Shown piece after piece: positions 11,528 to 24,869 of a stretch of 51,137 nucleotides of DNA; within the stretch, counting starts at the first letter, position 1, and each line of letters begins with the position of its first letter. Below the pieces are notes generated by a model. That model ran no database searches, had not been told where the DNA came from, and was given only the letters and a program-made list of their open reading frames with translations. The stretch spans positions 1-51,137 of the forward strand of contig JACQKU010000004.1 in NCBI GenBank assembly GCA_016204335.1, read 5' to 3'. Source of the DNA: Candidatus Liptonbacteria bacterium. Its GTDB lineage: Bacteria > Patescibacteriota > Minisyncoccia > UBA6257 > 2-01-FULL-56-20. Both the position numbers and the translations under genes were made by a program.

Positions 11528-12940
11528 ATGCTCACAAAACGCCAAAAAGAAGTTCTCAATTTCGTCGAAAGCTACTCGCAAAAGAAAGGATACGCTCCCT
11601 CGTTTGAGGAGATAAGAAAACGTCTCAAACTCGCCTCTGTTTCAACTGTTCATTTTCATATTTCGAAACTCAAAGAAGGCGGCTATTTGGGAAAAATAGA
11701 AAATAGAGCCCGCGCCATCAGCATTACTTCCAAAGAACCGATGGTAAAGATTCCCCTTTTGGGAACAATAGCCGCAGGACAGCCGATTGAAGCAATCCAA
11801 CAAAAAGAAATGATCGCCATTCCGAAAAGTAAAATCCCAGCTTCATCGGAAGTTTATGCTCTTCGCGTGGTCGGCAGCAGTATGATTGATGAAAATATCA
11901 ACGACGGCGATATTGTTCTAGTAAGGCAACAAGAAACTGCGGAGAATGGGCAAAAAGTCGTTGCTTTGATTGATAATCACGAAGCAACGCTCAAAAAATA
12001 TTATCGCGAGCGTGGATATGTTCGCCTGCAACCGGCAAACAAAAGTATGGAACCTATTATTTTGCGAAATGGTCGGGATTTTTCGATTCAAGGGATAGTG
12101 CTGGATGTTATTCGGGAAGAAGGAGCTTCAACAATTCAACTCCCTGAATACAAAGAAATAGAACAGCATAGAGAATTGCCGCTAAACGAAATTATTTGCG
12201 GTGATGCGATAGATGTAATGAAAACATTCCCACCAAATTCTATAGATCTTGTGGTAACTTCGCCGCCTTATGATGAATTAAGAAATTATAAAGGCTACAA
12301 CTTTGACTTCGAGGGTATTGCTAAGGGTTTATTTAGGGTGATCAAAAAGGGAGGTGTCTTGGTTTGGGTCGTTGGAGATAAAATTAAGAAAGGGAATAAA
12401 AGCCTCACAAGTTTCAAACAAACACTATTTTTTCAGGAAATTGGATTCAACGTTCATGACGTTATGATTTATAAGAAAAAAAATACACCTTTTATGAGGA
12501 CAAATAGTTATACAAACTGTTTTGAATTCATGTTTGTTTTCAGTAAAGGTTCGCCAAAAACATTTAACCCATTAAAAACTAAAACCGCAAGACAAGGGCA
12601 AGAAATGTTACCTTTCAACAAAGGACCAGATGGCATAAATAAAAAAAATTTAGGTGAACTTAAGCCCGAAAAAACAATGACAAATATTTGGGAATATGCC
12701 GTAGGTCTTTATGGAACAACAAGTGACAAGATTGCTTTTGAGCATCCTGCAGTTTTCCCGGAAAAATTAGCCGAAGACCATATTCTCTCGTGGACCAATC
12801 AAGGCGATGTTGTTTTTGACCCGATGTGTGGCTCTGGGACTACTTGCAAAATGGCACTGATGAACCATCGTTCTTATATTGGTTGTGATATATCTAAAGA
12901 GTACGTTGAACTAACCAAAAAGAGATTAAAAAATATTTAA
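11528..12940 (+). CDS. LexA repressor - beta-class DNA methyltransferase fusion
   Basis: LexA wHTH; Ala83-Gly84 cleavage site (TIAAGQP); Ser118 and Lys156; then CGDAIDVMKTFPPNSIDLVVTSPPYDE and FDPMCGSGTT. Confidence 0.93.
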   Translation: MLTKRQKEVLNFVESYSQKKGYAPSFEEIRKRLKLASVSTVHFHISKLKEGGYLGKIENRARAISITSKEPMVKIPLLGTIAAGQPIEAIQQKEMIAIPKSKIPASSEVYALRVVGSSMIDENINDGDIVLVRQQETAENGQKVVALIDNHEATLKKYYRERGYVRLQPANKSMEPIILRNGRDFSIQGIVLDVIREEGASTIQLPEYKEIEQHRELPLNEIICGDAIDVMKTFPPNSIDLVVTSPPYDELRNYKGYNFDFEGIAKGLFRVIKKGGVLVWVVGDKIKKGNKSLTSFKQTLFFQEIGFNVHDVMIYKKKNTPFMRTNSYTNCFEFMFVFSKGSPKTFNPLKTKTARQGQEMLPFNKGPDGINKKNLGELKPEKTMTNIWEYAVGLYGTTSDKIAFEHPAVFPEKLAEDHILSWTNQGDVVFDPMCGSGTTCKMALMNHRSYIGCDISKEYVELTKKRLKNI

Positions 12941-12948
12941 TCGTTCTG

Positions 12949-13521
12949 TTAAATAAATTTAATAGCTCTTTTTAGAATCTTTTTATCATCCTTAAATCTA
13001 CCTATTCCGGTATTACAACTATCACATACCCAACCCCTTACTTTTCCCGAATGATGATTGTGTTCAAGGACTACTTTACTAGTAATACCAGCAATAGTCC
13101 TTTTTGAACAAATAGGACACTCGAATGGTTCGTTCACTGGCTTGCTCTTCAACCATTTTTTCTTTTCTGCGCTACTTATATTAACTCCCTCAAGCTGTTT
13201 TCTACACTTTTGACATGATGGCCTTCGAACCGACCTATTATTTTTTGCGTTCTGATTTTTTGCAAACTCAACAGTACTTCTGAGTTTATGACAAATGTTA
13301 CAAATCTTTTTGGAGAAACCATCTCCAGTCTTTTTGACATCAAAAATTTTGAAATCATTTTTCTTTAAAGTAGCTTTTCGCCAAATTCTTATAAAAAAGA
13401 TAGAAGCACTTTCTTTTGATTCAGATTCAACAATGCCAACATCGTCTTTTTCAATCAAGATTTTGCCTGAAAGTTTTATATTCTTCTTAGCAAAGACGAA
13501 TTTATTAGTATACTGGTTCAT
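12949..13521 (-). CDS. HNH/beta-beta-alpha-Me nuclease, endonuclease VII / Hpy99I-like
   Basis: CNICH...CQKC and CPIC...LEHNHHSGKVRGWVCDSCNTGIGRFKDD. Confidence 0.85.
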   Translation of the reverse strand: MNQYTNKFVFAKKNIKLSGKILIEKDDVGIVESESKESASIFFIRIWRKATLKKNDFKIFDVKKTGDGFSKKICNICHKLRSTVEFAKNQNAKNNRSVRRPSCQKCRKQLEGVNISSAEKKKWLKSKPVNEPFECPICSKRTIAGITSKVVLEHNHHSGKVRGWVCDSCNTGIGRFKDDKKILKRAIKFI

Positions 13522-19559: not shown

Positions 19560-21416
19560 ATGTTTAAATTGATTTCCAATTTTGTCCCCCAAGGCGACCA
19601 GCCGGACGCCATCGAAAAGCTGTCCGAAGGGGTGAGCCACGGCCTCGAACATCAGGTTCTTTTGGGCATTACCGGAAGCGGCAAAACGTTTACGATGGCG
19701 AAAATGATTGAACAGCTTCACCTGCCGACGCTCGTCATCTCGCCGAACAAAATCCTCGCGGCCCAGCTATACCAGGAATTCAAAAGTTTTTTCCCGGAAA
19801 ACGCGGTTCATTATTTCGTTTCCTACTATGACTACTACCAGCCCGAGGCGTATCTGCCTTCGACCGACACGTACATCGCGAAAGACGCGCGCATCAATAA
19901 GGACATCGACCGGCTCCGGCACGCGGCGCTCCAGGCGGTGCTCGAACGCCGCGACACCATTGTCATCGCTTCGGTTTCCTGCATTTACGGCGTCGGCGAC
20001 CCGGCGGAATATCAGAAAGCGTGTCTCGCCCTGAAACTCGGACAGAAAATAAGTCCGGCTGACGCGGCGCGGCACCTTAATTTTTTGCAGTACGAACGTG
20101 TAGAGCGCGAGCCGGAGCATATCGGCCAGTTCAAACTCGAAAAAAACGAACTTGTGGTTTATACAATCGCCGGAGAAAGAATATTATTGACATTTTCCGC
20201 CAAAGGCGGATCCGCCTCGGGCGGAAAAAATCAACTTGTTTCAATTTTCAACTCCCACAAAAACGAGTCGATACAGTCGCTCAAAATATTTCCGGCGAAA
20301 TTTTGGGTGACGCCGCGCGACCGGCTCCGCATCGCCATTGCGAACATCAAAAAAGAACTGTCCGAGCGCGTTGAGGACTTGCAGGCCGCGAACAAATTCG
20401 CCGAAGCCGAACGGCTTACCAAGCGCGTTTCGTTCGACCTCGAACGGCTGAAAAAAGACGGGTATATGAACGGAATCGAAAACTACTCGCGGCATCTCTC
20501 ATTCCGAGAGCAGGGCGAACCGCCGATGACCATTCTCGATTATTTCCCAAAACCGTTTTTGCTATTTATCGACGAATCGCACATCGGCGTGCCCCAACTG
20601 AACGGGATGTACGCGGGCGACCGGAGGCGCAAGCAAACGCTTGTTGATTACGGCTTCCGGCTTCCGTCCGCTCTCGACAACCGCCCGCTCCGGTTCGAGG
20701 AATTCAAAAAGAAAATCGGCCAGACGATTTATGTTTCGGCGACGCCCGGCGACTATGAAATGCAAATTGTAAAAGAAACGGGGCAGGTCGCGGAGCAAAT
20801 CATCAGGCCCACCGGCGTGCTCGACCCTGAAATCATCATCAGGCCGGCGCAGACGCAGATAAAAAGTTTGCTCGCGGAAATAAAAAAGCGGACGCTCAAA
20901 AACGAGCGGGTTTTGGCGCTGACGCTCACGAAACGCCAGTCCGAAGACCTGACCGAATTTCTTTTGAGCCGCGGCATCAAAGCCGAATATATCCATTCGG
21001 AAATAAAAACGCTGAAGCGGCCCGAAATTCTCCACAGGTTGCGGAGCGGCGAAGTTGACGTGCTCGTCGGCATCAATCTTTTGCGCGAAGGTTTGGATTT
21101 GCCGGAAGTTTCGCTCGTGGCAATTTTGAACGCCGACCGCGAAGGATTTTTGCGGAATCACCGGAGCTTGATGCAGATGGCGGGCCGCGCGGCGCGCTCC
21201 ACCAACGGCCAGGTGATTTTCTACGCCGACCAGATTACCGAATCCATCAGAAAAGCGGTCGGCGAAACCAACCGCCGCCGGAAAGTCCAGCTCGCGTTCA
21301 ACAAAAAATTCTCATTGGAGCCGAAGACAATCAAAAAGCCGCTCACGGTCGCGAGTTTGCTCGAAATCGCGGGGTTTCGGAGCGAAAACGACGCGCAGAT
21401 TGCGGACGAGGATTGA
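19560..21416 (+). CDS. uvrB: UvrABC system protein B
   Basis: GDQPDAIEKLSEGV, GITGSGKTFTMAK, SYYDYYQPEAYLPSTDTYIAKD. Confidence 0.97.
   Translation: MFKLISNFVPQGDQPDAIEKLSEGVSHGLEHQVLLGITGSGKTFTMAKMIEQLHLPTLVISPNKILAAQLYQEFKSFFPENAVHYFVSYYDYYQPEAYLPSTDTYIAKDARINKDIDRLRHAALQAVLERRDTIVIASVSCIYGVGDPAEYQKACLALKLGQKISPADAARHLNFLQYERVEREPEHIGQFKLEKNELVVYTIAGERILLTFSAKGGSASGGKNQLVSIFNSHKNESIQSLKIFPAKFWVTPRDRLRIAIANIKKELSERVEDLQAANKFAEAERLTKRVSFDLERLKKDGYMNGIENYSRHLSFREQGEPPMTILDYFPKPFLLFIDESHIGVPQLNGMYAGDRRRKQTLVDYGFRLPSALDNRPLRFEEFKKKIGQTIYVSATPGDYEMQIVKETGQVAEQIIRPTGVLDPEIIIRPAQTQIKSLLAEIKKRTLKNERVLALTLTKRQSEDLTEFLLSRGIKAEYIHSEIKTLKRPEILHRLRSGEVDVLVGINLLREGLDLPEVSLVAILNADREGFLRNHRSLMQMAGRAARSTNGQVIFYADQITESIRKAVGETNRRRKVQLAFNKKFSLEPKTIKKPLTVASLLEIAGFRSENDAQIADED
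20193..20229. repeat. Palindromic repeat TTTTCCGCCAAAGGCGGATCCGCCTCGGGCGGAAAA in frame within uvrB
   Basis: Nested inverted repeats; near-copy in intergenic DNA at 34207-34240. Confidence 0.8.
21339..21381 (+). repeat. 43-bp direct repeat, copy 1 (inside the uvrB 3' end)
   Basis: ccgctcacggtcgcgagtttgctcgaaatcgcggggtttcgga, exact match at 22205-22247. Confidence 0.97.
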
Positions 21417-21557: not shown

Positions 21558-21857
21558 GTGAATATACAGATACTCAGCAATGTCTCGAAGTTTCTTGAAG
21601 GACTCTCAAGAGAGGACGACGCCAAAATAGCCGCGCATTTGAAATCGCTTGCAATGGATCAGACCGACGGGCTTGCGATAAAACCTCTCAAAGGGAAAAT
21701 AAAAGAACTAATCGTGAGGCAATACCGAATCGTGTTCTTCAAAATAGGCGATAGCGGATATGTCGTGGATGTTTTCAGAAAACAGAGCAAGAAAACCCCG
21801 AAGCGAACCATCGAGCGAGCCGAGAGAATCTATCGGGACATTAATGCAAAGCAATAA
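21558..21857 (+). CDS. RelE/HigB-like toxin (GTG start)
   Basis: LKGKIKELIVRQYRIVFFKIGDSGYVVDVFRKQSKKTPKRTIERAERI pattern of phage-derived Gp49-like/HigB toxins. Confidence 0.82.
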   Translation: MNIQILSNVSKFLEGLSREDDAKIAAHLKSLAMDQTDGLAIKPLKGKIKELIVRQYRIVFFKIGDSGYVVDVFRKQSKKTPKRTIERAERIYRDINAKQ

Positions 21858-21886
21858 CTGCCAGTCGGGTAATAACAAAAAATGAG

Positions 21887-22204
21887 ATGAAAAAAATAAA
21901 CGCTGCAAAATATAATTTTACTTCGCTTGATACGATCATCAGAAAAAAACTCGCCAATCGGCGATTCCGCGCGTCGTTCACGGAAGAAACAAACAGATTG
22001 CAATTGGCACGCGAAATCAGAGGATTACGCGCGAAGAGGAATATGACCCAGAAAGAAGTCGCGGCGGAGGCGAATATGCCCCAATCCGTTGTCGCGCGTA
22101 TAGAATCAGGAACGCACAGCGTCTCGATTGCCACGCTTCATAAAATCGCGGGGGTCTTCGAAAAACGTGTCGGCTTGGTGGGACAAACACAAGACCGCAG
22201 ATAA
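21887..22204 (+). CDS. XRE-family HTH antitoxin (HigA-like)
   Basis: LRAKRNMTQKEVAAEANMPQSVVARIESGTHSVSIATLHKIAGVF. Confidence 0.85.
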   Translation: MKKINAAKYNFTSLDTIIRKKLANRRFRASFTEETNRLQLAREIRGLRAKRNMTQKEVAAEANMPQSVVARIESGTHSVSIATLHKIAGVFEKRVGLVGQTQDRR

Positions 22205-22247
22205 CCGCTCACGGTCGCGAGTTTGCTCGAAATCGCGGGGTTTCGGA
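22205..22247 (+). repeat. 43-bp direct repeat, copy 2 (orphan uvrB 3' end)
   Basis: Identical to 21339-21381; continues as KNEEDIDTSLVEEE* in the uvrB frame. Confidence 0.97.
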
Positions 22248-22290
22248 AAAACGAAGAGGATATTGATACGTCGTTGGTTGAAGAAGAATA
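22205..22290 (+). pseudogene. Remnant of a uvrB C-terminus (PLTVASLLEIAGFRKNEEDIDTSLVEEE*)
   Basis: In-frame reading of 22205-22290 reproduces the UvrB C-terminal segment with a different acidic tail. Confidence 0.85.
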
Positions 22291-22327
22291 GTTACTCTGA
22301 TAAAATATATGAAACTAAAGATACGAT

Positions 22328-23593
22328 ATGTCATCAAAAAAATTTATATTTCAAGATAAAAAAATAAAGATTGATTCCGATACTACAAAAATACTGGATG
22401 ATTTCTTTGACACAATCCCTACTCTGGAAAAAGAGTTAGAGAAAACTCTGTTGGTTTTATTTGATTCAAAAACTAAAGTTTTTTATACACTCTGTAATAT
22501 AAAAAAGAAAAATTTTGTGGGTTTAGTAGATAAAAATGCGGTCATTGACCCTGATCTCCAGGAAGATTACAAGTTAAATAGAGACCTTCAGCCGAACAAT
22601 CCAGATTTCAAGGAAATGCAAAATGACGCAAGTAAGGGCAGGCAATTTACTGATATTGTAGTCGAATACAATAAACAATATAAACCAGATAGGCCCTTAA
22701 AAATCCTGGGTGGCCAGCACAGGGCAGAGGCGATAGAACAAAAATCTCCAGATGAATCAGTACATGGATTGAGAATTTATTTCAACCTAGATAAAGACAA
22801 AAGAGCTGAAATCGCTATAATTTCTAACACGAATATCGATATTTCTCCTGACCTGCTTGATAGAATGGAGGAGCAAAGACTTGATCCACCAAATAAGCTT
22901 AGAGATTTTGCATACGCAATAGGCTTGCTTGAAAAAGGTAAAGATTTTGCTGATTCAAGAGTTAACCCTAATAATTTACCTACGGTAAGGATGGCTAGAA
23001 CATTTATAGTTAATTTTTATAAGGGAAGGGAATACGAAGAAGATTATGATAGCGATGCATTAGAAGGAATGATTTGTTCTTCATCTGGCATGGATTCTGA
23101 TTACGAAAAAATTTATAAAATTAAAAACTTTGCTGAGGATGAAAAATTAGTAGGAGCAGGAAAAAAATTTATAGAATTACATAAAAAACAATATAAAATT
23201 GCCTCGAATAGAGAGGGACTTAAACAAGTAAAAGCCCACAGGATGAAAGCAATGGCTATAGCAGTTGTTTCTGCGTGGTCTTACGTAAGTGGGTTGTTAC
23301 AACGTGATTCGAAAAGATTAAGTAAATTTTACGATTTACCAAAAAACTCTGGCAAGAATGACCCGCTGAATGCAAAAGCGATGACAGCTTTTCAGCTTAA
23401 AGGCGTTGACCCCGAAGCATATCGTGGGCTTGGCACAAGAACAGACGCAAAAGAACGTGGCAGATTAATAACAATTTTCTTAGAATACTCTAAGGCCGCA
23501 AGTGGAGACGAAATAAATCCAACTTTATTAGACCGAGCAGTTAGATATTATCAAGGCAATAAAATGAGAAAAGAGGGTGATAAATATAAATGA
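22328..23593 (+). CDS. DGQHR-domain-like protein (DndB-related superfamily)
   Basis: RPLKILGGQHRAEAIEQKS; downstream pattern IAIISNTNIDISPDLLDRM. Confidence 0.75.
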   Translation: MSSKKFIFQDKKIKIDSDTTKILDDFFDTIPTLEKELEKTLLVLFDSKTKVFYTLCNIKKKNFVGLVDKNAVIDPDLQEDYKLNRDLQPNNPDFKEMQNDASKGRQFTDIVVEYNKQYKPDRPLKILGGQHRAEAIEQKSPDESVHGLRIYFNLDKDKRAEIAIISNTNIDISPDLLDRMEEQRLDPPNKLRDFAYAIGLLEKGKDFADSRVNPNNLPTVRMARTFIVNFYKGREYEEDYDSDALEGMICSSSGMDSDYEKIYKIKNFAEDEKLVGAGKKFIELHKKQYKIASNREGLKQVKAHRMKAMAIAVVSAWSYVSGLLQRDSKRLSKFYDLPKNSGKNDPLNAKAMTAFQLKGVDPEAYRGLGTRTDAKERGRLITIFLEYSKAASGDEINPTLLDRAVRYYQGNKMRKEGDKYK

Positions 23594-24135
23594 AATCCTC
23601 TAGTTATTCATTGATAGATCATATAAAACTGCTCCTCGATTCAAACGAATGGTATCTTGAAAAGATTAGAACGAAAAATACTCTCCCATTCCAGGAAGAG
23701 ATTTTTTGTATGGCGGTCATATCTAATGCTTGGTCGGCATTAGAAGGATACATTAATTTCATAGCTTCTTTGGCAAAATTCGCTAGAAAACTTGAATCTC
23801 ACGAAATGGCCTTCCTTGAGGAAATGGATTGGAAATTAAACGACAAGGGGAAATTTGAAAAACAGACAGCCTATCAGTCAACTACTAAAAAGTTCCTTTT
23901 TTTGTTAGAAAGGTTTTCTTCTGTAAAAATAGTTAAATTTAATAAAAGTAGAATCTGGAACGATATGAAAGTATCAGAAAAAATAAGAAATGGCCTCATA
24001 CATCCAAAAGAAACTATCGTCTTTAAGGATTTTAATCTTGAAACAGCAGAAATGACACATAAGACCGCCAAACTAGCTATTCTTTTTTTGGAGAAAAAAG
24101 TTTTGAAATCAAAACACTCGAGTTTCCAAAGTTAA
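23590..24135 (+). CDS. Putative HEPN-like protein
   Basis: Helical ORF with SEKIRNGLIHPKE (R-X4-H); ATGA 4-nt overlap with the DGQHR gene. Confidence 0.5.
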   Translation: MKSSSYSLIDHIKLLLDSNEWYLEKIRTKNTLPFQEEIFCMAVISNAWSALEGYINFIASLAKFARKLESHEMAFLEEMDWKLNDKGKFEKQTAYQSTTKKFLFLLERFSSVKIVKFNKSRIWNDMKVSEKIRNGLIHPKETIVFKDFNLETAEMTHKTAKLAILFLEKKVLKSKHSSFQS

Positions 24136-24446: not shown

Positions 24447-24869
24447 CTATGACAGTGACGATGATTTTGACGCTGGCGAGGATAGGTAGCCGGTAAATTT
24501 CCTTAATCGTTTCGCAAGGCTTCTTGCTTCTTCCAAAAATTCCGAGTGTTGCACCTCCGAAATATAGCCATCATCAAGCGCACAATCCAAACAAGAAACT
24601 ACCTCGTCCAACGAGCAATGCGCTCTATTGATGTAAAGCCGCATATCTTTGTCCGTACTTTTGTTGGTGCTCTCCGCAATATTTAAAACAATGGAGTTCA
24701 ACGCCCGTTTCGTCTGGTCGGTCAAAGCATATATTTCGCTTTTCGGATAGCTTTTCAAAATTTCGTTAATTTTATTCCTAAATAATCTAGAATCTGTGTA
24801 AACATCCCATTCTCTAAACCTGAAGCCGTACTCGTCAACTTTTTTCCTCTCTGTCATAGTCATTGTCAT
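24447..24869 (-). CDS. Four-helix-bundle protein (S23 / 23S rRNA intervening-sequence protein family)
   Basis: YALTDQTKRALNSIVLNIAESTNKSTDKDMRLYINRAHCSLDEVVSCLDCALD. Confidence 0.85.
   Translation of the reverse strand: MTMTMTERKKVDEYGFRFREWDVYTDSRLFRNKINEILKSYPKSEIYALTDQTKRALNSIVLNIAESTNKSTDKDMRLYINRAHCSLDEVVSCLDCALDDGYISEVQHSEFLEEARSLAKRLRKFTGYLSSPASKSSSLS

Follow-up and report, generated by a model that had tools for sequence, protein, structure and literature searches.

An acquired, probably defensive gene pair between uvrB and rpsT that couples a DGQHR-like protein to a predicted HEPN ribonuclease

What do two overlapping, AT-rich genes located between uvrB and rpsT in a Candidatus Liptonbacteria genome encode, and do they belong to a known type of immune system? 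Proteins of the ParB/Srx fold recur in phage defence, as in GmrS, SspE, the DUF262 protein of PD-T4-2, DndB and DpdB, while the signal that they sense and the way in which they control partner nucleases are mostly open. DGQHR-type (DndB/DpdB-like) proteins are so far known around DNA-modification systems. We analyzed the gene pair, referred to here as A and B, within a window of 51,137 nucleotides that constitutes one contig of a 0.70-Mb assembly, a small size that suggests a candidate-phyla-radiation bacterium. Our reading is that A and B are an acquired, probably defensive pair, and that they vary an architecture already known, in which a ParB-fold protein is combined with a HEPN protein, by using a sensor that is DGQHR-like.

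Layout, composition and insertion site

The initial annotation described two open reading frames joined by an ATGA overlap, and both were found among the ORFs of the window; they share these 4 nt, both frames are intact, and they are translationally coupled. The features of the locus, all on the forward strand, are the following:

21558-22204 (+): HigBA-like toxin-antitoxin pair (Gp49/RelE-like toxin, HTH antitoxin), a separate insertion outside the A-B pair
22205-22291 (+): original uvrB 3' end (PLTVASLLEIAGFRKNEEDIDTSLVEEE, stop) between the toxin-antitoxin insertion and A, identified by the repeat and by comparison with relatives
22328-23593 (+): gene A, 421 aa, a putative, diverged protein of DGQHR-like type (ParB/Srx fold) that ends in a long helical part, assigned from its sequence
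22565-22852 (+): DGQHR-core-like segment of A, residues 80-175, with NR (QR in the family), GGQHR and then GLRIYFNLDKDKRAEIAIISNTN (V..L....F..IN in the family), from the alignment and PHROG 723
22709-22723 (+): GGQHR motif of A, residues 128-132, a predicted nucleotide-binding box by analogy with GmrS and SspE (PMC4619093, PMC10952713)
23590-24135 (+): gene B, 181 aa, a predicted HEPN ribonuclease (RiboL-PSP / MAE_28990-like), from a Pfam match and motifs
23986-24003 (+): RNGLIH, residues 133-138, the predicted HEPN active-site motif of B (R133, H138), from the alignment and motif counts

The cassette has a G+C content of 34.0%. Across the window, stretches of this size have 48.2% on average (sd 4.1), and just 0.2% of them are as low. 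Third-position G+C (GC3) is 0.28 in A and 0.33 in B, against 0.68 in uvrB and 0.62 in rpsT, which agrees with the earlier remark that the pair is AT-richer than these two neighbors.

The pair had also been placed directly behind the toxin-antitoxin insertion. It does follow the HigBA-like genes, but arrival of all four genes as one insertion was rejected because of the original uvrB end between them, and two separate insertions are the best reading. Two identical 43-bp copies of sequence from the 3' end of uvrB, in direct orientation (21339-21381 and 22205-22247), flank the toxin-antitoxin pair, and the downstream copy runs on into a uvrB tail like that of the relatives, with a stop at 22291; A starts 36 bp later. 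The toxin-antitoxin genes have a G+C content of 44-48% versus 34% for A-B, and because the compositions differ we treat the two insertions as independent arrivals. At the toxin-antitoxin insertion, uvrB has gained a new C-terminal tail and the original tail was left behind, as in gene-end-restoring integration; the ORFs listed near this insertion include no integrase.

The interval between uvrB and rpsT varies among related genomes. In one of them (G421) rpsT begins 52 bp after uvrB, in another (G411) the gap is about 0.55 kb, and in a sister genome whose uvrB is 83% identical (G393) it reaches 3.4 kb, with genes for a RelE-like toxin, an N6/N4 DNA methylase and a protein with a weak PD-(D/E)XK match (L145, 10801-12588). 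This makes uvrB-rpsT an insertion spot that takes up defence-type genes. The view of A-B as an acquired defence-type cassette is well supported, and the cassette sits in a variable insertion spot.

On the far side of rpsT, before a holA-like gene, the window encodes a four-helix-bundle protein of the 23S rRNA intervening-sequence family (24447-24869, reverse strand), which had no tblastn match in the corresponding regions of four relatives.

Sequence relationships of the two proteins

Neither protein scores above the cut-off of any curated family model. For A, the Pfam, NCBIfam and PADLOC models gave no meaningful match, and neither DGQHR (TIGR03187) nor DndB (PF14072) was detected in searches of Pfam and NCBIfam to E 1 and of Pfam to E 10. 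The PHROG 723 ParB-like model matches residues 93-168 weakly (E 0.047). The GGQHR variant reported earlier is present in RPLKILGGQHRAEAIE; it keeps four of the five residues of the nearly invariant DGQHR pentapeptide, with D replaced by G. In the multiple alignment, the upstream QR pair of the family is NR in A and the downstream FxxxN is IxxxN.

We compared A by hhalign with 11 aligned DGQHR proteins, of which ten are encoded on plasmids and one (L106) in a different genome of the phylum. The score was 35.1, with a pairwise E of 5e-4, whereas 150 shuffles of A reached a mean of 14.9 (sd 2.8, maximum 23.9) and the best of the other window ORFs scored 18.2. The matching part is segment 122-174, which comprises the GGQHR strand and the V..L....IN region that follows it; the C-terminal half of A has no recognised similarity. 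Judged by the score against shuffles and other ORFs and by the weak PHROG ParB-like hit to the same segment, the core, predicted nucleotide-binding segment of A has the profile similarity of the broad ParB/Srx-like superfamily. An alignment of DUF262 proteins did not match A (hhalign probability 0.16%). As A stands above its shuffles and the other ORFs on the DGQHR profile and has no DUF262 match, it lies nearest to the DGQHR branch. By sequence, then, A is assigned as a diverged ParB/Srx-type protein closest to this branch. The earlier label of a DGQHR-type, DndB-like protein holds in its first half only: the likeness to DGQHR proteins withstands comparison with the controls, while membership of the DndB family is rejected, given the missing PF14072 and TIGR03187 matches and the absence of the QR pair and of the Phe of FxxxN. 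A single-sequence AlphaFold2 model of A (pLDDT 33.4) was too poor for use.

For B, the sole match among 24,736 Pfam families is HEPN_RiboL-PSP (PF18735), with E 0.014 and 15.7 bits against a cut-off of 28.4 (13.7 bits and E 0.0158 at the level of the genome). This local match covers residues 24-126 and does not extend to the active-site motif; the apparent reason is that about 35 mid-domain residues of the family are missing from B. In a multiple alignment with eight known family members, EGYIN of B falls under WEG[FYW][IV]K and RNGLIHPK under RN-x-[IV]-x-HG. The R-X4-H signature pointed out in the initial annotation lies in SEKIRNGLIHPKE, where RNGLIH at 133-138 provides R-X4-6-H with a polar residue after the arginine.

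On its own, R-X4-H is a weak pattern that 13% of the shuffled versions of B contain. The longer RN-x-[ILV]-x-H, a pattern written after the alignment had been seen, occurs in 0.14% of shuffles, and its combination with an upstream EG[aromatic/aliphatic][IV], in that order and likewise defined post hoc, in 0.0015%. When the 2315 ORFs with a length of 150 aa or more in all loci of the analysis were scanned, these post hoc patterns were found together in order only in B, in the eight family members and in one chance ORF. A small profile built from the eight HEPN members did not place B above its own shuffles, so the HEPN call relies on the motifs and on the Pfam model, which is larger. The single-sequence AlphaFold2 model of B is nearly all helical but too poor (pLDDT 55.8), and a fold search of the PDB with it returned only coiled-coil look-alikes and no match at E 0.001 or better. 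With the Pfam match, weak as it is, and the two signature motifs, the proposal that B is a HEPN protein survives, and we regard it as quite probable.

Comparison with known ParB-fold and HEPN pairs

Pairs of ParB-fold (DUF262) and HEPN proteins are already known, and the difference in A-B is a DGQHR/DndB-like sensor in place of DUF262. A 2013 survey of HEPN proteins described RiboL-PSP-HEPN as lying 'in operon with ParB' and, for the MAE_28990 type, gave 'in operon with a ParB nuclease and DNA methylase genes' (PMC3710099). The multi-component anti-T4 system PD-T4-2 of E. coli, for which a review gives a DUF262 protein of ParB/Srx fold and a PF18735 HEPN (PMC10952713), protects E. coli from T4, and its deletion from the native strain allows T4 to form plaques (PMC9519451). 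Like A-B as interpreted here, it consists of a ParB/Srx-type NTPase-like protein and a RiboL-PSP-family HEPN. In contrast to PD-T4-2, A matches neither PD-T4-2_A (PADLOC, E up to 10) nor DUF262 and has the box GGQHR, of DGQHR type, instead of DGQQR, and B matches PF18735 only below threshold. Membership of PD-T4-2 was rejected on the missing PD-T4-2_A and DUF262 matches of A.

A DUF262-HEPN pair also exists in the same phylum (genome G099, locus L007). Its DUF262 gene matches PADLOC NsnA at 3e-55 and PD-T4-2_A at 3e-29, its partner is a PF18735 HEPN (E 3e-37), the two genes overlap by ATGA as A and B do, and a DNA methylase-like gene adjoins them. DUF262 and HEPN genes overlap, abut or nearly do so at six plasmid loci, four of them beside restriction-modification or methylase genes. 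Co-occurrence in other genomes, the check named in the initial annotation, is seen at the level of this general architecture only. These pairs of a DUF262 sensor (NsnA-like at L007) and a MAE_28990/MAE_18760-family HEPN-like protein resemble A-B in gene order, overlap and sizes, in the R-N-x3-H and W/EG motifs, and in their defence surroundings. They differ in the sensor, which is DUF262 rather than DGQHR-like, and in a central stretch of about 35 residues in their HEPN proteins that B lacks.

The DGQHR/DndB family (TIGR03187, PF14072; DndB, DpdB) shares with A the [DG]GQHR core and the strand-helix-IN region after it, whereas A has no HMM match, the substitutions D to G, QR to NR and a replaced Phe of FxxxN, no nearby dnd or dpd genes, and a C-terminal half unlike any recognised sequence. 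None of the annotated DGQHR loci examined on plasmids has a HEPN neighbor. At three of the plasmid loci (L157, L160 and L161), the DGQHR protein is followed by an unannotated protein of about 300 aa that matches no Pfam family and is a possible conserved partner. In another genome of the phylum (L107, 871-2610), a 579-aa DGQHR-domain protein, extended over a long stretch at its N-terminus, is encoded directly after a DNA methylase-like gene.

Proposed function and alternative explanations

We favor, with moderate confidence, the interpretation that the two genes make up a module for defence or abortive infection whose function is like that of PD-T4-2. The equivalent DGQQR box of GmrS and SspE forms a nucleotide pocket (PMC4619093; PMC10952713). 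By analogy, A, as a ParB/Srx-fold and DGQHR-like protein, would bind and perhaps hydrolyse a nucleotide through its GGQHR box, restrain B and sense infection, possibly through modified or otherwise altered phage DNA. Upon infection A would release B, and the freed protein, acting as a HEPN endoribonuclease, would cleave RNA independently of metal through R133 and H138, so that the infected cell would stop growing.

The sensor-effector mechanism suggested earlier is plausible, but the idea of a new minimal system is not supported: DUF262-HEPN pairs are known and PD-T4-2 has been validated. A bolder version, that a DGQHR-type (DndB/DpdB-like) protein replaces DUF262 as the stand-alone sensor-inhibitor of a HEPN ribonuclease, with no modification machinery, and thereby founds a new two-gene immune lineage, is put forward only tentatively. 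Should the A-B pair be real, it would show that direct wiring to an RNase toxin, in the absence of DNA-modification genes, is also possible for the DGQHR branch, and an acquired defence module, together with the uvrB-rpsT insertion spot, would be added for a bacterial lineage with small genomes.

The main competitor of the defence module is a plain toxin-antitoxin (addiction) module, in which B would be a HEPN RNase toxin and A its neutralising antitoxin or enzyme, free of any phage sensing and kept because loss is costly. An upstream partner and a downstream HEPN toxin with a 4-nt overlap form the layout argued to be usual for HEPN toxin-antitoxin dyads (PMC3710099), and a second toxin-antitoxin pair adjoins A-B. 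Nevertheless, we consider this explanation somewhat unlikely, as A is large (421 aa) and has a nucleotide-binding-type motif, and as the related DUF262-HEPN pairs lie mainly beside restriction-modification genes, with PD-T4-2 defending against phage. Clearly less credible is that A serves, as an accessory of DndB/DpdB type, a DNA-modification system located elsewhere in the genome, for which B would be a backup effector. A does resemble DGQHR proteins, to which DndB and DpdB belong, and HEPN RNases serve as backup effectors in Dnd neighborhoods (PMC10853773); however, a search of the whole genome for DndB alone gave no DndB-family match at E up to 10, and the initial annotation recorded no dnd genes in the window. 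We regard this accessory role as very improbable.

Another explanation treats A and B as orphan cargo, either unrelated or decaying, at a hot spot of insertion, with motifs that are partly coincidental and no joint immune function. It draws on the weakness of every family match and on the outcome of the relative searches. By tblastn and pattern scans, A had no convincing relative in species-representative genomes, plasmids, phages or viral contigs, and none in samples of 384 whole genomes of the phylum and 387 of the class. The searches for B covered 100 near relatives as well as viral contigs, plasmids and phages and gave no convincing relative. The matches near E 0.001-0.01 in these searches were short or of low identity. 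A masked two-row query (A1), in which the presumed motif stretches alone were retained, was used in wider scans and found no match, and the DNA pattern for LGGQHRA-x-A detected only chance frames in GC-rich DNA among viral contigs. This absence of relatives is weak evidence, since single-sequence queries are limited, and it may reflect either fast divergence or an unsampled source lineage. Against orphan cargo stand the intact, translationally coupled frames and the fact that two weak matches independently indicate the two halves of a known two-gene architecture; we judge it rather improbable, although less so than the accessory role.

The window contains another AT-rich stretch. A LexA-like protein (LexA DNA-binding domain, S24 peptidase) is fused there to an N6/N4 DNA methylase (11528-12940, forward strand), and a gene for an Endonuclease VII / His-Me-finger nuclease (12949-13521, reverse strand) is convergent with the fusion gene. 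Together, the genes at 11528-13521 have the look of a restriction-modification unit in which methylase and SOS-type repressor form one fused protein.
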